Of a DNA stretch of 64,000 bases, positions 11,048 to 25,048 are shown in pieces. Source of the DNA: Nitrosomonas sp. Nm166 (GTDB taxonomy: Bacteria > Pseudomonadota > Gammaproteobacteria > Burkholderiales > Nitrosomonadaceae). Position numbers and translations under genes: made by a program. The notes under the pieces were generated by a model. That model ran no database searches. It was given only the letters and a program-made list of their open reading frames with translations, and was not told where the DNA came from. The stretch is taken from assembly GCF_900112825.1 (NCBI RefSeq), contig NZ_FONE01000002.1, positions 62,001 to 126,000 on the forward strand. The letters are read 5' to 3'. The stretch's first letter is position 1. Each line of letters begins with the position of its first letter.

Positions 11048-12898
11048 ATGAGTCAAGATAGGAACCTTACTCCTTTAATGCTTGCTCGCGAAACATTGCA
11101 GCAGCTTTCGTTACTTAAGATTCCTCCCACACCTGAAAACTATCACAGAGTCTACAATCAAATTGCGGGTAAATCAGAAAATACCATTTCTGAAAGCACT
11201 GCAAAAGTTTTGGAGGAATTAATATCCGTATTTCCACGACATACACCCAATTTATCCAAATATGCTAGCGCCTTAGAGCAAGCGTTAGAGGCTAAGAATT
11301 GGTATAACTATAAAGCTGTGTTCATTAATTTTATAGAAACTGAATTTACTCCAGAAAATAAGCTTATAGCGCCTGGCAATATAGTTCCTGAAGCTATCGC
11401 TCCGTGGGGAAGCTTGATAGAAGCCTTATTAAAACAATTGGAGAACAACCACGGTACTTTAACGATTGCAAAAAAGCGAGTAGCTCTTAATCACGTCCTT
11501 AAAAAATTTTCTCAAGATCCAAAGCAGTTATATATCAAGTTAGAAACTTTAATTGACTCATGGAGAAAGTCATCAGAATCTTCTCGAATACAGATTGATC
11601 ATTTAGAAGAAATCTCATCATTCACTGATCAGAATAATCAATCAGTTCAGAATTGGTATGTAGATAAAGCTGAATCGGGGAAATATCATGCGACCATTCG
11701 TTTTATTAATCAATTACTGGAGCTGCAGGTGTACGTGCTAGAAAAATTTGCTGATTCTCAAATGGATAATATTGTTTTGGCCGAAGAAGCCAAAGCACTG
11801 ACACAGCAATTAAAAAAAATTCAAGATGAACAAGGAATTAAGCAATGGATTTCTAATTTTAAAGAGTTTTGCCTTAAATTTGATTTACTGGGTGAGAATG
11901 ATGTCAAGTTGCAACAAGGTTTGTTGAGGTTGCTGAATTTGCTGATAAATAATGCTAATTATTTACTCTCAGAAGATCAGTGGCTTAAAAGTAAGATCCT
12001 TATGCTAAAGGAAGAAATAGCTCAACCATTGAGTCTGCGAAACATAGCGCAAGCTGAGCATTATCTCGAAGAAATCATCCAACGGCAGAAGATCATAAAA
12101 CGGCGCTTGGATGAAGCTAAGTTGATGACGAAACAAATGGTAGCTTCCCTAATTAGTAATATTGAAGAACTGTATAATTCAACAGGAAAGTATCATGCCA
12201 GACTTGGGTATTACTCCGAAAAGATTAATCAAATTGATGATATAGAGGTACTCAACCAATTTCTCGTAGAAATTATGGAAGAAACCAAGCAGATGCAGAA
12301 AAGCGCATTAAATTATCGTAATGACTTTCTGACAGCTCGCGCAGAAGTTTACATGGCACAGAATAAAATAAGTCAGCTTGAAACCGAGTTGTTGGAAATG
12401 GGTGAGAAAGTGCACGAAGATCACCTGACTGGGATTCTGAATCGACGTGGTTTTGATAATGCTTTTGAACGCGAAAGTTCCCATGCGGCTCGCCATCAGA
12501 CTCCTTTATCTTTTGCATTATTAGATATTGATAATTTTAAACAGCTGAATGACACCCATGGCCATAAAGTTGGTGATGATGCACTGGTGTACTTAGTTAA
12601 ATCAGTAAAAGAGACGACTCGACCTGAAGATATTATGTCGCGTTATGGTGGTGAGGAATTTATCATTTTACTGCCAAATACAAAACTTGAAGAGGCTGTG
12701 CATATTTTATCCAGAATACGGCGTAATTTGACCAGGAAGTTCTTTATGCATGAGAATAAGCGCTTGTTAATCACTTTTAGCGCTGGAGTGGCTCAACTTC
12801 GACCAGGAGAAGCACAAGTAAGTATTTTTAAGCGCGCTGATAATGCTTTGTATCGCGCCAAGAAGGGCGGTAAAAATCAAATACTCACAGCTGAGTAG
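11048..12898 (+). CDS. GGDEF diguanylate cyclase with long N-terminal helical region
   Basis: A 616-residue protein. The last 170 residues form a GGDEF domain with an intact active site (GGEEF near residue 532), preceded at the correct spacing by RPED, an RxxD allosteric I-site. It should therefore make c-di-GMP and be product-inhibited. The N-terminal 430 residues are helical, beginning LARETLQQLSLLKIPPTPENY, a region seen in other betaproteobacterial cyclases, and include a coiled coil just before the catalytic domain. No membrane segment is evident. The only good Shine-Dalgarno (AGGAG at 11021) is about 22 bases upstream of the ATG, so translation may be weak or structured. Confidence 0.9.
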   Translation: MSQDRNLTPLMLARETLQQLSLLKIPPTPENYHRVYNQIAGKSENTISESTAKVLEELISVFPRHTPNLSKYASALEQALEAKNWYNYKAVFINFIETEFTPENKLIAPGNIVPEAIAPWGSLIEALLKQLENNHGTLTIAKKRVALNHVLKKFSQDPKQLYIKLETLIDSWRKSSESSRIQIDHLEEISSFTDQNNQSVQNWYVDKAESGKYHATIRFINQLLELQVYVLEKFADSQMDNIVLAEEAKALTQQLKKIQDEQGIKQWISNFKEFCLKFDLLGENDVKLQQGLLRLLNLLINNANYLLSEDQWLKSKILMLKEEIAQPLSLRNIAQAEHYLEEIIQRQKIIKRRLDEAKLMTKQMVASLISNIEELYNSTGKYHARLGYYSEKINQIDDIEVLNQFLVEIMEETKQMQKSALNYRNDFLTARAEVYMAQNKISQLETELLEMGEKVHEDHLTGILNRRGFDNAFERESSHAARHQTPLSFALLDIDNFKQLNDTHGHKVGDDALVYLVKSVKETTRPEDIMSRYGGEEFIILLPNTKLEEAVHILSRIRRNLTRKFFMHENKRLLITFSAGVAQLRPGEAQVSIFKRADNALYRAKKGGKNQILTAE

Positions 12899-13179
12899 TT
12901 TTATAACTGATTGTTAATTATAAATAATATCATATTCTTCAGTAAATAGTACCAATTCCCCTTTTTATTCATTCAATCTGTTCCTGATTTGCTTTGCTAA
13001 CTTTGCTACGTGGCAGCCTGCACCGGAATGGGTTCTCCTTCGCAATCCAACGATCATACCACCTGGCATGGCTGGCACTTTGATGTAAAGCTGGGGGCAA
13101 AGCTATTAAGCAAAAACAAACAAGAATGCTAAGACTGGTTAAATCATCACCAGATGTCATTAAAATTGAGCAGGAACCC

Positions 13180-13896
13180 ATGATTGATTCTGGAAACTAT
13201 TATAAGCAGGTAGAGCGTTATGCTGAACAGATTCGCAAAACAAGTAGTGCGGATGAGATTATTAGAATTCTTGACATTGTGTTATCCATGACTAAAGGGT
13301 TGAAACTTAGTGATGAGATATTCACTGCACAGGAACAGGTAAAATGTGCCGAGCAGAAAATTAAGTCATTGAAAAATGAATTGGAGCAGTTAAGAGAGCT
13401 TGTACAAATTGACCAGATGACCGGTGCGTTCAATCGTCGTGGATTAGATGACATTTTTAAACGAGAAGCAGCTCGTGCTGACCGAAATGCGCAGTCATTG
13501 GGAGTCGTTTTGATTGATCTAGATAACTTTAAACAGATCAATGATACATTGGGTCATTCCTATGGAGATAATATATTAATTAATTTAGTAACTATTGCTA
13601 AGAAAACATTACGTCCTTCTGATACTGTGGCGCGCTTTGGTGGGGAAGAGTTTGTGATTTTATTGCCTGATGTTGAGTTAGAAGATGCATTAACGATTGT
13701 TCATCGATTACAGAATAACCTAATAAAAAATAGTTTACTTCAAATAGATGAACGATCAATATCGATAACATTTAGTGCAGGAGTTGCGCTGCGTTCATTT
13801 GGCGAGCATCAACATTCAGTGATAAACCGCGCTGATCGGGCGCTCTATCAAGCAAAACGTACAGGGAAGAATCGCATAATTCCCGCATTAATATAA
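13180..13896 (+). CDS. GGDEF diguanylate cyclase, short form
   Basis: About 238 residues. An N-terminal helical/coiled-coil segment of about 80 residues leads into a GGDEF domain with GGEEF and, five residues before it, RPSD, an intact RxxD I-site. It is related to the GGDEF domain of the preceding gene (both have GAFNRRG/GILNRRG and LIDLDNFKQINDT-type motifs) and is probably its shortened paralogue. I place the start at the ATG at 13180, preceded by CAGGA, rather than the in-frame ATG at 13126 (18 residues longer), which lacks a ribosome site. Confidence 0.87.
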   Translation: MIDSGNYYKQVERYAEQIRKTSSADEIIRILDIVLSMTKGLKLSDEIFTAQEQVKCAEQKIKSLKNELEQLRELVQIDQMTGAFNRRGLDDIFKREAARADRNAQSLGVVLIDLDNFKQINDTLGHSYGDNILINLVTIAKKTLRPSDTVARFGGEEFVILLPDVELEDALTIVHRLQNNLIKNSLLQIDERSISITFSAGVALRSFGEHQHSVINRADRALYQAKRTGKNRIIPALI

Positions 13897-19072: not shown

Positions 19073-19852
19073 TTAGGTACAGGTTCTGAAAACTATTTTT
19101 CGTTTTCTCAGACTATCCAATATCTCCATACCGCCTTGGATAACGATATTGGCTTCAGGATGGTTAAGTTCTTCAGCAATTTGTATTAGCAAGGCTCGTC
19201 CGGTTTGACTGGTATTGCTTGAGATCAGTTGTATCAGTCGGGCTGTTACCGGATTGATTTCCATAAAATGCACATCAAAATTGTTATCACGATAAACCAT
19301 CAGGTGAGTCTGAGTTTTGCTGGCTTCCTTGGGTTGAAAGGCCGGGCTTATTTTGTGAACCGGGAAGTGATAACTGAGTGGCCAGGCCAAGGGAGAAATC
19401 GCAGGGATTCCATCCCACAAATCGCCTTCTGAATTTATTTTTGTTTCATCCACCTTCTCATCCAGTAATGAAAGTGCTAATTCAACCCATTCGTAATGAG
19501 CGAGTTCCAGCATGAAAGGCGGATCATCCGGGTGCGGTTTACGTTCATGTTCCAGGTATTTCAGGAATTCGCGCGGCATTTCTGGAAACAGCGGGGTATG
19601 CGATCGATGGTTAGCGAAATAATCACGGATCATCGAATGCCAGCGTTCATCCGGTGTAATCTGGCGTAACACTGGATAAGTGTCAGCGATAAATTCTTCC
19701 ACATTGTTATAAAACAGTTCGCGGTAGATTTTCATGCGCCGCTCTTCTATAGCTTCTGGAAGCGGGTTTTTATCCGGATTACGGATATGGGCTGTAAAAG
19801 CGTACTGGTGCCGCACAAAATCAGGACGATCGGCCGTATTGTAGGTGATCAC
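19073..19852 (-). CDS. hvfC: HvfC/BufC-type partner protein (DUF2063)
   Basis: About 259 residues. The N-terminal [17 protein letters not shown] and the helical [26 protein letters not shown] block are typical of DUF2063, the partner protein that binds precursor peptides for DUF692 iron enzymes. No ATG fits: the open frame runs up to 19966 but would then overlap hvfB by 146 bases. I take the GTG at 19852, six codons before PDFVRH, giving an overlap of 32 bases with hvfB. It is the last gene of hvfA-hvfB-hvfC, read leftward and convergent with the ABC exporter. Confidence 0.85.
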
Positions 19853-20687
19853 TGTTTTGGCTCTGCCACTTGGATTGTAATGAATGGATGATATTGACCT
19901 CTTCCAACAGTTCTGAAAGTGGTGGAAAGTTAGAATCACGCTCCAGTAGCGTAGGTATAACACCAAATTGTTGATAAGTCTGATCTAACAGTTGCCAGAC
20001 GGGATCGATGACATTTGCACCATGAGTATCCACAATCAAATCATCTGCTTCCTGGTAATGTCCAGCGATATGAATATAGCGGATACGTTCTGCTGGAAGC
20101 TGCTTGAGAAAAGCTTCAGCATCATAGTGATGATTGATGCTGTTGACGTAAATATTGTTGACGTCCAGTAATAAATCGCAGTCCGATTCCTGCAATACTG
20201 CGTTGAGAAAATCGATTTCTTCCATTTTCTTGCCAAGTGCCGCATAGTAGGAGATATTTTCCATCGCAATGCGTTGTTCCAGCATATCTTGTACTCGCTT
20301 AATACGCTGAGCAATGTAATGAACTGCTTCTTCAGTAAAAGGGATGGGCATCAGATCATACAGGTGACCATCATCACTACAGTAACTCAAATGTTCACTG
20401 TAACAGCGAATATGATGTTCGTTCAGGAAACGCTTCAGTCGCTGCAGAAAAGCCTCATCTAATGGTGCTGGTCCACCGATAGAAAGGGATAAGCCGTGAC
20501 AAAGAAAGGGAAATTTCTCAGCGAGTTCACGAAATTTTTTGCCATAATAGCCACCCACTCCAAGCCAGTTTTCTGGCGCTATTTCCCAGAAATTTACCGT
20601 ATTAGCGGGTTGATCCGGGAGTGAACGCATGAGCGTTCTCCGCAGACCAAGACCTGCACCATGAACAGGATAATGCTGACTGTGCAT
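19821..20687 (-). CDS. hvfB: DUF692 multinuclear iron oxygenase (HvfB/BufB/MbnB family)
   Basis: A 288-residue TIM-barrel-type enzyme. Family motifs are intact: GLGLRR at the N-terminus, [59 protein letters not shown] and TLLERD. The His, Glu, Asp and Asn residues within these form the iron site in MbnB and its relatives. Members of this family modify cysteines in ribosomal peptides into heterocyclic copper-binding groups. The substrate is probably the HvfA-type precursor encoded 18 bases upstream, with the DUF2063 protein downstream as partner. Confidence 0.93.
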
Positions 20688-21186: not shown

Positions 21187-22176
21187 TTATTTCTTGCTAT
21201 TAATAACTTGCCATCGAGTAGACATTCCCGCAGTCATGTGGTCATCGACATGACAATGAAATAACCAATCTCCTACTGAGCGGGGAATCATATCAACCGA
21301 TGTCATGCTGGCAGGCAATACTTCAACGACATCAGTGCGGCGGCCATGGTCGAGCACGGTTTGCCCATGCCAATGGATAGTATGATTATCCGTTTCATTA
21401 CCCAATGCAACGAGATGCCAGCGGACACGTTCTCCAATACGGGTTTCATAACCAGAGAGATTGCCAAAGATTCGACCATTGATCGTGTGCTTCATTCCGC
21501 TTTCCTCACCGTTTTCTTCGTTAAAGATCATGTATAAAGCGGTAAATTCCTGGTCAATATCCTGCGGCATGGGGTTAGAGGGGGAACGTGCCTTACCCTC
21601 ACGAGTAACCACAATCGTACCGATCAAACCGAGATTCGTTTCATCTTCTGACATGACATGAGAATGATAAAGCCAGACGATGGATGATGGGTCAGTTGGT
21701 CCAGGCCCGGCGTCTTCGTCCACTATCCAGGTATAGGTGTAGCTTTTTCCAGGCAGAATGCTGGCACCTTTACCTCCATCCGCGCCTTCGCTATCTTTAT
21801 CGTACATTACACCATGCGGATGAATGGAAAGCGGCCGGTCTGTCCTATTTAAGAAATGAATTTTTAATGTATCTCCCACCGCGGCACGCAATTGAGGTCC
21901 CAAAATTCCCATCCATTCAGGTTGCGGCAGTGGTGTAGAGTAATTACCATCTGTATAGCCAATATAGCGGTACTTGGTATATGTTAGAGACTGCCCCCAA
22001 ACACCCAATCCATCGTCCGGGTTAATCAAATTCTTCCCAGAAGGTGCGTAGTTCCAGGATGCTTTTTCCGCGGCTATCCAGTACTCTCTCACAGCCGCAT
22101 GTACTGATAATGAAGATACGAGACTTAGAAAAAAAAGTATCATTAGCGGAATTTTCCTAATATACTGAAAAATCAT
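21187..22176 (-). CDS. Two-domain multicopper oxidase
   Basis: A 329-residue periplasmic protein; the signal peptide ends about residue 27 (SVHA). Two cupredoxin domains are present. Domain 1 has HPHG (119-122) and HSH (171-173), trinuclear-site ligands, with no type 1 cysteine. Domain 2 has HTIHWHG (265-271) and HCHVDDHMTAGM (307-318), which supplies type 2/3 ligands and a type 1 copper site (His, Cys308, His, Met318). This is a type B-like arrangement, where the blue copper is only in domain 2, and the active protein should be a trimer. It may oxidise Cu(I) or phenolic substrates. It is 163 bases upstream of hvfA on the same strand, linking two copper-handling functions. Confidence 0.9.
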   Translation of the reverse strand: MIFQYIRKIPLMILFFLSLVSSLSVHAAVREYWIAAEKASWNYAPSGKNLINPDDGLGVWGQSLTYTKYRYIGYTDGNYSTPLPQPEWMGILGPQLRAAVGDTLKIHFLNRTDRPLSIHPHGVMYDKDSEGADGGKGASILPGKSYTYTWIVDEDAGPGPTDPSSIVWLYHSHVMSEDETNLGLIGTIVVTREGKARSPSNPMPQDIDQEFTALYMIFNEENGEESGMKHTINGRIFGNLSGYETRIGERVRWHLVALGNETDNHTIHWHGQTVLDHGRRTDVVEVLPASMTSVDMIPRSVGDWLFHCHVDDHMTAGMSTRWQVINSKK

Positions 22177-23647: not shown

Positions 23648-23833
23648 CTATTTGTTCAGAATTAACTTGCCATTGCGCGTACGTCGTAAAGAATATTGCT
23701 CGCCGTTATGCAGGATGAATATGACATCACTATCCTTAAATAGAGTATCGCTATCAATAGGTTTTTTTACATCAGATATTTTAGACTGATGCAAGCTTCT
23801 TATGCTTGTTTGAGAGAAAAATGCAGTATCCAT
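23648..23833 (-). CDS. hemP: HemP-like small protein
   Basis: A 61-residue protein ending in EQYSLRRTRNGKLILNK, the HemP signature (YxLRxTRxGKLILxK). HemP proteins are small basic activators of heme or iron uptake genes and their own genes are Fur-controlled. A Fur box lies just upstream. No heme receptor follows in this window; its targets must be elsewhere. The start at 23833 has only a weak ribosome site. Confidence 0.85.
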   Translation of the reverse strand: MDTAFFSQTSIRSLHQSKISDVKKPIDSDTLFKDSDVIFILHNGEQYSLRRTRNGKLILNK

Positions 23834-23851: not shown

Positions 23852-23871
23852 GATGAGAATGATTCTCATTA
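23852..23871. promoter_or_regulatory. Fur box upstream of hemP
   Basis: GATGAGAATGATTCTCATTA is a near-perfect inverted repeat and a close match to the 19-bp Fur consensus GATAATGATAATCATTATC. It lies about 19-38 bases before the hemP start codon, where it would block transcription initiation in iron-replete cells. Confidence 0.85.
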
Positions 23872-24046
23872 TATTTAATTCCTTGAGAAAGTACAAGACC
23901 TCAGCAAGAAATTAATGATTAAATTTGAGCTTTTTAATGAAGACTGCTGTGGAATGTAGACGGTTTGTTTGCTTAAGCAATGGTAGAATGATGCCTCCTC
24001 AAATACTTATCAGCTGTATTGATAAGAATTCTAAGTTCTTACTTAT

Positions 24047-25048
24047 ATGATCGAGCGACGAAATTTTTATCGAATTCTTTATGTTCAACCCGATGCTTCG
24101 ATGGCGGTGATTAGAGAAAATTACCGTGTTCTGATGCAAAAACTAAAAATACATCCAGACCTGGGCGATTCGAATTGGAATGAGAATTTGCTTGATATGG
24201 CTTATGACACTTTGCGGGATCCCCTTAAGCGAGCAGCTTATGATCATGAGTTATTGAAACGCTACCATATTAAAACGCTCAGCCAGGGCGGATTTTGTTC
24301 GAATGCTAATTTTAGGGTAAAGAACGAGAGAAACTTTCGATTCACGCAGCAACAGAATCAACGTAACTATTACCGAATACTTCAAGTTCAGCCTGATGCG
24401 CCTATTATGATTATTGCAGCTAGCTATCAAGCGTTAAAAAAAAGCTTACCACAGGATATTGCGTTACTGGATGAAGCCTATCAAACACTGTCAAATCCTG
24501 TAATGCGTGAACAATATGATGTGCTATTGGTTGCCAATAATTTTTCATATGATGCTGAGGAATCTGTTTCCACAGCTGCTGATTCAGTCAGTAATATCTC
24601 TCAATCAGCAATGAACGCTTACCAGGCAGTAATTACTCATTACTGTTCTTTCTGTAAGACGCCGTATCTACCGCAAGCGACTGTGTATCAAGGAGAGAGC
24701 TGCCTGGAGTGCGCAAGCCCGCTATTTGTTATGCCTTATGAAGGTCTCAAACCATCATACAGGACAATGATGCGAATGAATCTGAGGGGAAAGCTCATGC
24801 TCTATTTATTTTGGCCAGGCGGGCCTTATCAGGGATTATTGCAAGACTTGTCGCCCACAGGGATACGTTTTCTAACTGAACAATCATTTGATTTGCACGG
24901 CATTATAAAAATCGATGCACCTAACCTTCAGGCAGTCATTGAAGTGGCTCATCAACGTAAGGAAGGTAAAGAGATTTCGGTTGGAGGCCGCTTTATTACG
25001 GTAAAATTTGATCAACAGCGGGGAAACTTTATTACCGCTCATGCCTAG
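24047..25048 (+). CDS. DnaJ-DnaJ-zinc ribbon-PilZ fusion protein
   Basis: A 333-residue protein of unusual make-up. Residues 5-70 form a J domain with HPD at 36-38. Residues 107-160 form a second J-like domain starting with a near repeat of the first (NYYRILQVQPDA against NFYRILYVQPDA), which lacks HPD. Residues 198-224 carry two CxxC pairs (Cys200/203 and 219/222), a likely zinc knuckle. Residues 238-333 resemble PilZ (MRMNLRGKL, then DLSPTG at 267-272 and GGRFI). PilZ domains bind c-di-GMP, and two cyclases lie upstream. Only the first J domain can stimulate DnaK. No neighbouring gene shares its operon and no Shine-Dalgarno is obvious. Confidence 0.85.
   Translation: MIERRNFYRILYVQPDASMAVIRENYRVLMQKLKIHPDLGDSNWNENLLDMAYDTLRDPLKRAAYDHELLKRYHIKTLSQGGFCSNANFRVKNERNFRFTQQQNQRNYYRILQVQPDAPIMIIAASYQALKKSLPQDIALLDEAYQTLSNPVMREQYDVLLVANNFSYDAEESVSTAADSVSNISQSAMNAYQAVITHYCSFCKTPYLPQATVYQGESCLECASPLFVMPYEGLKPSYRTMMRMNLRGKLMLYLFWPGGPYQGLLQDLSPTGIRFLTEQSFDLHGIIKIDAPNLQAVIEVAHQRKEGKEISVGGRFITVKFDQQRGNFITAHA

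Follow-up and report, generated by a model that had tools for sequence, protein, structure and literature searches.

Whether cyclic di-GMP (c-di-GMP) can act on the Hsp70 cycle by way of a J protein is a question raised by a single gene of Nitrosomonas sp. Nm166, located in a 64,000-nucleotide stretch of contig NZ_FONE01000002.1 (positions 62,001 to 126,000 of the forward strand) that we refer to as the window. The original prediction, made from the sequence of the window, described a 333-residue protein combining two J domains, a zinc site and a PilZ domain and proposed that it is a chaperone partner controlled by c-di-GMP. Comparing this protein with its relatives and modeling its structure, we found that the HPD motif of the first J domain (J1) is strictly kept outside the window's Nitrosomonas clade but is being worn away inside this group of ammonia oxidizers, where the J fold, the zinc site and the motifs of the PilZ domain have been retained.

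Loss of the HPD motif in a Nitrosomonas clade

A scan of named genomes yielded 156 relatives, of which 80 loci were kept, and most of the best were labelled Nitrosomonas. Fifty-six of these loci were aligned with the window protein (alignment A2, 57 rows), and the other 24, being near-duplicates or broken, were excluded. All 32 rows that lie outside the window's Nitrosomonas clade have an unchanged HPDLGG, as would be expected of a functional Hsp70 partner, and these include all 16 rows outside the clade that have two J domains. Inside the clade, HPD was present in 8 of 25 rows (window included) and the full HPDLGG in 3 of 25, with the window itself having HPDLGD. The replacements include HPE, YPE, RAD, CPG and others, and the five rows nearest to the window have CPG, CPD, YPE, HPE and HPD. 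At least seven changes of HPD state are needed on a quick tree, which was built without the HPD and second J domain (J2) columns and has some long branches (L127, L109, L123, L124 and L111). J2 is without HPD in all 41 double-J rows. From these patterns, the family at large seems to have kept DnaK triggering, which looks dispensable in the clade of the window.

Away from HPD, J1 is at least as well conserved within the clade as in the rows outside it (mean 0.80 versus 0.72), which is partly expected of a young clade. Whole-gene ratios of nonsynonymous to synonymous substitution rates (dN/dS) were 0.08–0.19 in the eight of nine computed pairs that gave a value, and those of J1 were 0.05–0.23 in nine pairs, although several dS values exceeded 1 and are saturated. 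Whole-gene values were low even in pairs whose two members both have a degenerate HPD (L048/L049, 0.19; L061/L062, 0.12; L063/L067, 0.15). Judged by these ratios, the whole gene is under purifying selection. Low dN/dS and conservation of J1 therefore speak against gene decay and for a J fold that is maintained while the Hsp70 trigger has been relaxed. The loci left out of A2 agree: the 22 full-length ones all keep the four cysteines, RxxxR and D/NxSxxG, and when the 24 were sorted by resemblance rather than by tree, 17 fell within the window's clade, HPD being present in 3 of them, and 7 lay outside, all 7 with HPD (in L099 as HPDFGG).

A different role for the protein in the Nitrosomonas clade has to be weighed here, namely that its J domains no longer serve Hsp70 and that it is a c-di-GMP receptor whose two J folds provide a protein-binding or dimer scaffold. 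Such a pseudo-J receptor would account for the loss of HPD in 17 of 25 clade rows through repeated changes of state, for the conservation and low dN/dS of the remainder of J1 and for a J2 that always lacks HPD. It fits less well with the window's own copy, which keeps HPD, with the mildness of some losses (HPE), with the intact motif of the double-J rows outside the clade and with the youth of the clade, which explains part of the J1 conservation. We regard this alternative as possible though on the doubtful side and, in the window's clade, nearly as likely as a c-di-GMP-gated co-chaperone.

Domain architecture and the PilZ fold

The gene has the length and position given in the original prediction, and each of its four modules was recovered (Table 1). 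Two stretches of the window protein matched Pfam DnaJ (59.1 bits, cut-off 27.8), with HPD at residues 36–38 as predicted. J2, for which the original prediction noted a near-copied start, shares 45% identity with J1 across 62 aligned residues, and its median identity to the 16 single-J domains of the family is 50%, compared to 30–33% for the J domains of two DnaJ-type proteins from the same genome. J2 is therefore best seen as a duplicate of the J domain native to this family, from which the HPD loop is missing. J1 is two residues longer before HPD (24134–24151, residues 30–35) than five solved J domains aligned with it, a longer form shared by the A2 rows and extended by two further residues in L081.

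Table 1. Features of the J-J-zinc-PilZ gene and its surroundings, in window coordinates
Feature	Position	Strand	Basis or remark
J-J-zinc-PilZ gene	24047..25048	+	333 residues, stop included
J1 (residues 5–67), HPD-bearing	24059..24247	+	Pfam DnaJ; VIA-align Z 7.7 to 2och; alignments
HPD codons (residues 36–38)	24152..24160	+	
J2 (residues 105–160), without HPD loop	24359..24526	+	Model; VIA-align Z 7.3 to 4wb7; alignment
CxxC-x15-CxxC (C200, C203, C219, C222), likely zinc site	24644..24712	+	Cysteines in 57/57 rows
PilZ domain (residues 239–322)	24761..25012	+	Pfam, model, structure matches
RxxxR motif (residues 239–243)	24761..24775	+	57/57 rows
DxSxxG motif (residues 267–272, DLSPTG)	24845..24862	+	D/NxSxxG in 55/57 rows
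hemP	23648..23833	-	Pfam 57.6 bits; upstream, divergent
GGDEF protein (GGEEF)	11048..12898	+	About 11 kb upstream; context only
GGDEF protein (GGEEF)	13126..13896	+	About 10 kb upstream; context only

Hallmarks of class A and B DnaJ proteins (CxxCxGxG zinc repeats and DnaJ C-terminal domains) and an HSP70 domain gave no Pfam match in the window protein up to E 1. A canonical DnaJ zinc domain was accordingly rejected for the knot, which has two CxxC pairs only. The protein reached no NCBIfam family: the DnaJ, CbpA, HscB, TopJ and ActJ models all stayed under their cut-offs, with HscB the nearest (33.2 versus 46.75 bits) and bacterial DnaJ scoring 36.1 bits against a cut-off of 377.2 in the J1 region only. 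Sub-threshold matches to NCBIfam CysI and to Pfam CRAL_TRIO_2 and Lipocalin_2 (both E 0.05) were taken as chance.

The Pfam PilZ match (residues 257–320) was marginal, falling exactly at the cut-off of 22.5 bits and, in a whole-genome scan, just below it at 21.2 bits. We therefore modeled the window protein with AlphaFold2 from alignment A2. The model has four helices in J1 with a fifth at residues 75–85, four helices in J2 and six strands at residues 244–321, and its block-mean predicted local distance difference test scores were 87–98 over residues 241–320, the PilZ part. In VIA-align, PilZ domains ranked first, with VCA0042 at their head (1yln; Z 11.7, root-mean-square deviation (rmsd) 1.8 over 82 residues), followed by the c-di-GMP complexes of VCA0042 (Z 11.5), PA0012 (Z 11.4) and YcgR (Z 10.5), while non-PilZ barrels of the flavin-reductase type trailed at Z 8.3 and below. 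The best Foldseek match was cellulose synthase with c-di-GMP (E 3.3e-5), for which the whole-chain superposition was poor, and single PilZ proteins came closely behind from E 0.001. J1 superposed on 2och (65 residues, rmsd 1.9) and J2 on 4wb7 (63 residues, rmsd 1.2; outermost aligned residues 105 and 257). The single-J form L117 likewise modeled as J plus PilZ (Z 11.3 to 4wb7 and Z 10.9 to 5vx6, respectively). For both proteins the zinc knot was barely covered in the lists of structure matches, and we claim no fold for it. The model thus settles what the marginal Pfam score left in doubt: the window protein contains a PilZ fold, in line with the C-terminal PilZ domain originally proposed.

The motifs associated with c-di-GMP binding are nearly invariant. 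All four cysteines and RxxxR were kept in 57 of 57 rows and D/NxSxxG in 55, with 23 residues between RxxxR and the D/N position in 52 rows and 24 in the other 5. The exceptions, L107 and L108, are gammaproteobacterial double-J members with ExTxxG, and they may bind c-di-GMP weakly or not at all. Near invariance of both motifs and their spacing makes it improbable that the PilZ domain is a protein–protein interaction barrel that does not bind c-di-GMP, as does the fact that many of the nearest structures were solved with the ligand. What favors such a barrel is the Pfam score at or just under threshold and the precedent of Myxococcus xanthus PlpA, which has the motif residues and is reported not to bind (PMC8316039). 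Taken together, c-di-GMP sensing looks like the conserved core of the family.

Distribution and relatives

The window's genus group was covered by 37 genomes, its own included. Of these, 26 have a full-length double-J copy, one (G023) has a copy in pieces, one (G009) has a single-J form and nine have none. The fusion is therefore more than chance. Nor does it stem from assembly, from the choice of frame or start, or from a decaying gene: at least two of the 80 loci are indeed broken (L100 over two frames, L120 truncated), but the same architecture occupies one open frame in these 26 genomes and in 41 of the 57 A2 rows, and its dN/dS is low. These counts refute an artefact, to which we give practically no weight.

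The 41 double-J rows comprise 28 from Betaproteobacteria, 8 from Gammaproteobacteria, 3 from Thermodesulfobacteriota, one unplaced member of Pseudomonadota and the window. The other 16 rows have a single J domain followed by the zinc knot and PilZ (225–254 residues) and come from Gammaproteobacteria (seven), Acidobacteriota (four), Nitrospirota (two) and Thermodesulfobacteriota (one), together with L112 (Deltaproteobacteria) and L117 (unplaced). L112 was not counted as a myxobacterial member, because the table gives Myxococcota but the record only Deltaproteobacteria without phylum. Many relatives are metagenome bins, and single taxonomic placements may be wrong. The family thus appears scattered over several phyla and apparently unstudied. 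It is also thinly spread: in a search of 300 genomes from the order, 11 gave a match at E 1e-10, and three of these (G164, G199 and G291) have other J proteins, with no PilZ or CxxC knot seen in their open reading frames (ORFs). A class-level search with a single-J profile matched 16 of 369 genomes at E 1e-15, rows that were not individually checked for all modules, and tblastn found no plasmid copy in PLSDB at 1e-5.

On the quick tree, the double-J rows all lie on one side of one branch (Shimodaira–Hasegawa-like approximate likelihood ratio test, 97), which is consistent with one duplication, although the tree alone cannot separate gain from loss of J2. We infer that the single-J form is the older one. 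Single-J forms also occur in the window's own genus group and order (L028 from G009, L029 and L031 from G051, and L032 from G104); G009, 89% complete, has the single-J form and no double-J copy was found in it. Two pairs of loci labelled Nitrosomonas adjoin gammaproteobacterial rows instead (L084/L090 next to L107/L108, and L085/L091 next to L097). They keep HPD and sit apart from the main Nitrosomonas clade, whether by transfer, as paralogues or through binning.

Genomic surroundings

The J-PilZ gene stands alone. hemP and a ferritin-family gene lie upstream and are divergent from it, and a metallo-beta-lactamase-fold gene lies downstream and is convergent. The two cyclases cited in support of c-di-GMP control do exist, both with GGEEF, and beyond them are a histidine kinase and flagellar genes. 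They are, however, 10–11 kb away in a genome with 15 GGDEF matches and two PilZ matches, so their nearness to the J-PilZ gene says little. The genome also has a full-length DnaK. At C76:57383–59035, outside the window, there is a second HSP70-like locus in several frames, either a broken gene or the product of assembly errors, and a second DnaJ-type J domain is found near it at C76:61813.

Neighboring ORFs of at least 90 residues were clustered, and at most the 45 commonest clusters, down to those with 4 loci, were considered. No neighbor or operon in these clusters links the J-PilZ gene to DnaK or to a client. Steady neighbors in Nitrosomonas are ferritin-family (26 loci), DUF2325-type (26) and metallo-beta-lactamase-fold (21) genes on the other strand and, some 2 kb downstream in the orientation of the J-PilZ gene, a regulator-like gene (26 loci). 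Overlap between taxa is scattered: L097 and 11 other loci have a three-gene cluster in common, an efflux-type pair is common with L094, L115 and L125, and a transporter-like gene with L114 and L119. Outside Nitrosomonas, a 307-residue gene on the other strand lies near the J-PilZ gene in 7 loci. We read these scattered overlaps as synteny.

A Fur-like box at 23855–23873, next to hemP, has 3 mismatches to the Fur consensus, and 1 of 200 shuffles did as well. In 12 of 24 other clade rows hemP lies at most 700 bases upstream, each time with a similar box (2–4 mismatches). The box keeps a steady distance from hemP, but anywhere between 88 and 352 bases separate it from the start of the J-PilZ gene; we do not claim Fur control of the J-PilZ gene, and the box most likely serves hemP. 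Elsewhere in the window, an MbnB/TglH/ChrH family enzyme adjoins a DUF2063 / NGO1945 C-terminal protein on the minus strand (19073–20687), near a multicopper oxidase (21187–22176); such a pair is known from copper-linked peptide modification.

A possible c-di-GMP-gated co-chaperone

In known PilZ proteins, the RxxxR arm folds around c-di-GMP and shifts its position against the barrel. In the window protein, c-di-GMP would be bound by this arm and the DxSxxG strand, and binding would clamp the arm, whose start closely follows the zinc knot, onto the barrel. Since 15–21 residues separate the last cysteine from the arm, binding would reposition the zinc knot and the J part relative to the PilZ surface. 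A specific client may be held by the PilZ/zinc part, to which the HPD-bearing J1 would call DnaK. J2, lacking the HPD loop, should not trigger DnaK and is probably a spacer or a surface for docking. Selection on the DnaK-triggering step would no longer be strong in the window's clade, although the window copy keeps HPD.

Whether the protein is such a c-di-GMP-gated co-chaperone, with triggering relaxed in the window's clade, is a close call in which we lean slightly toward doubt. The identity of HPDLGG outside the clade supports DnaK recruitment for most of the family. Also in favor are the PilZ fold with its motifs, the J-plus-PilZ model of the single-J form L117, the full-length DnaK and 15 GGDEF matches of the genome and the purifying selection on the gene. 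Genomes with the gene also have more GGDEF domains (median 25 in 27 genomes versus 9 in 9 genomes without; Mann–Whitney p = 6e-5, uncorrected for kinship), with the single-J genome G009 left out, the fragmented G023 counted as a carrier and G004 (75% complete) as a non-carrier. Several points weigh against this mechanism in addition to the HPD counts of the clade. The GGDEF correlation ignores kinship, and no partner gene recurs across the family in the neighbor clusters. The model has a predicted template modeling score of 0.56, so that its domain arrangement is not reliable, and the zinc knot is poorly modeled (block means of 67–82 over residues 201–230). In the M. xanthus chaperone CsdK2, client contact in a two-hybrid assay was independent of the PilZ domain or c-di-GMP motif (PMC10313047).

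The c-di-GMP-controlled chaperone mechanism of the original prediction is thus plausible and partly supported: its modules are real and its motifs nearly invariant, but most of the window's own clade has lost HPD and the neighborhood offers no tie to DnaK or a client. For the family as a whole, we tentatively suggest, as possible rather than probable, that c-di-GMP-gated Hsp70 co-chaperones occur in several phyla, with the messenger setting the moment at which DnaK reaches a given client, that nitrosomonads repeatedly lose HPD on the way to a pseudo-J c-di-GMP receptor and that the relatives record the steps.

Comparison with known systems

c-di-GMP receptors are known to act on motility, on the export of polysaccharides, on transcription and on certain enzymes. 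If true, an Hsp70 cycle controlled directly by way of a J protein would be a new output. Nature has also supplied an experiment, in which the same scaffold has a strict HPD in single-J rows and in those double-J rows that fall outside the clade, and a worn one in most of the Nitrosomonas clade, and comparing these natural variants allows the role of the J domain to be tested.

The window protein resembles VCA0042, YcgR, MapZ and MrkH in its PilZ fold and bipartite c-di-GMP motif; none of the four is known to have a chaperone domain. It resembles class C J-domain proteins in having an HPD-bearing J domain and no canonical DnaJ zinc or C-terminal domain that we could find, but differs from them in its second, HPD-less J copy, its PilZ domain and the two extra residues before HPD.

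The original prediction knew of no characterised protein with this architecture. We found no study of a J-zinc-PilZ protein in the open-access literature, whose entries were mostly judged by title and the start of the abstract, with subscription journals mostly outside its scope; the parts of PMC10781756 and PMC12943098 consulted held nothing bearing on such proteins. The claim needs one qualification: in PMC8316039, four of the 24 PilZ proteins of M. xanthus are said to carry a DnaK or DnaJ domain, so that a J-plus-PilZ combination may already have been noted in that set. Among the 24 deletions, those of plpA, pixA, pixB and pkn1 are reported to have motility or development defects (PMC8316039).

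The closest published case is that of CsdK1 and CsdK2 (Mxan_3778 and Mxan_6605), PilZ-DnaK chaperones of M. xanthus described in PMC10313047 and included among the 24 proteins of PMC8316039; CsdK2 is reported in PMC10313047 to have a full c-di-GMP motif. This kind of protein is therefore known already, while the J-zinc-PilZ family is apparently new to study. In both cases a single chain joins PilZ to a component of the Hsp70 machinery, but the window protein carries the J partner, with a C-terminal PilZ domain and a zinc knot, in place of the HSP70 domain itself.
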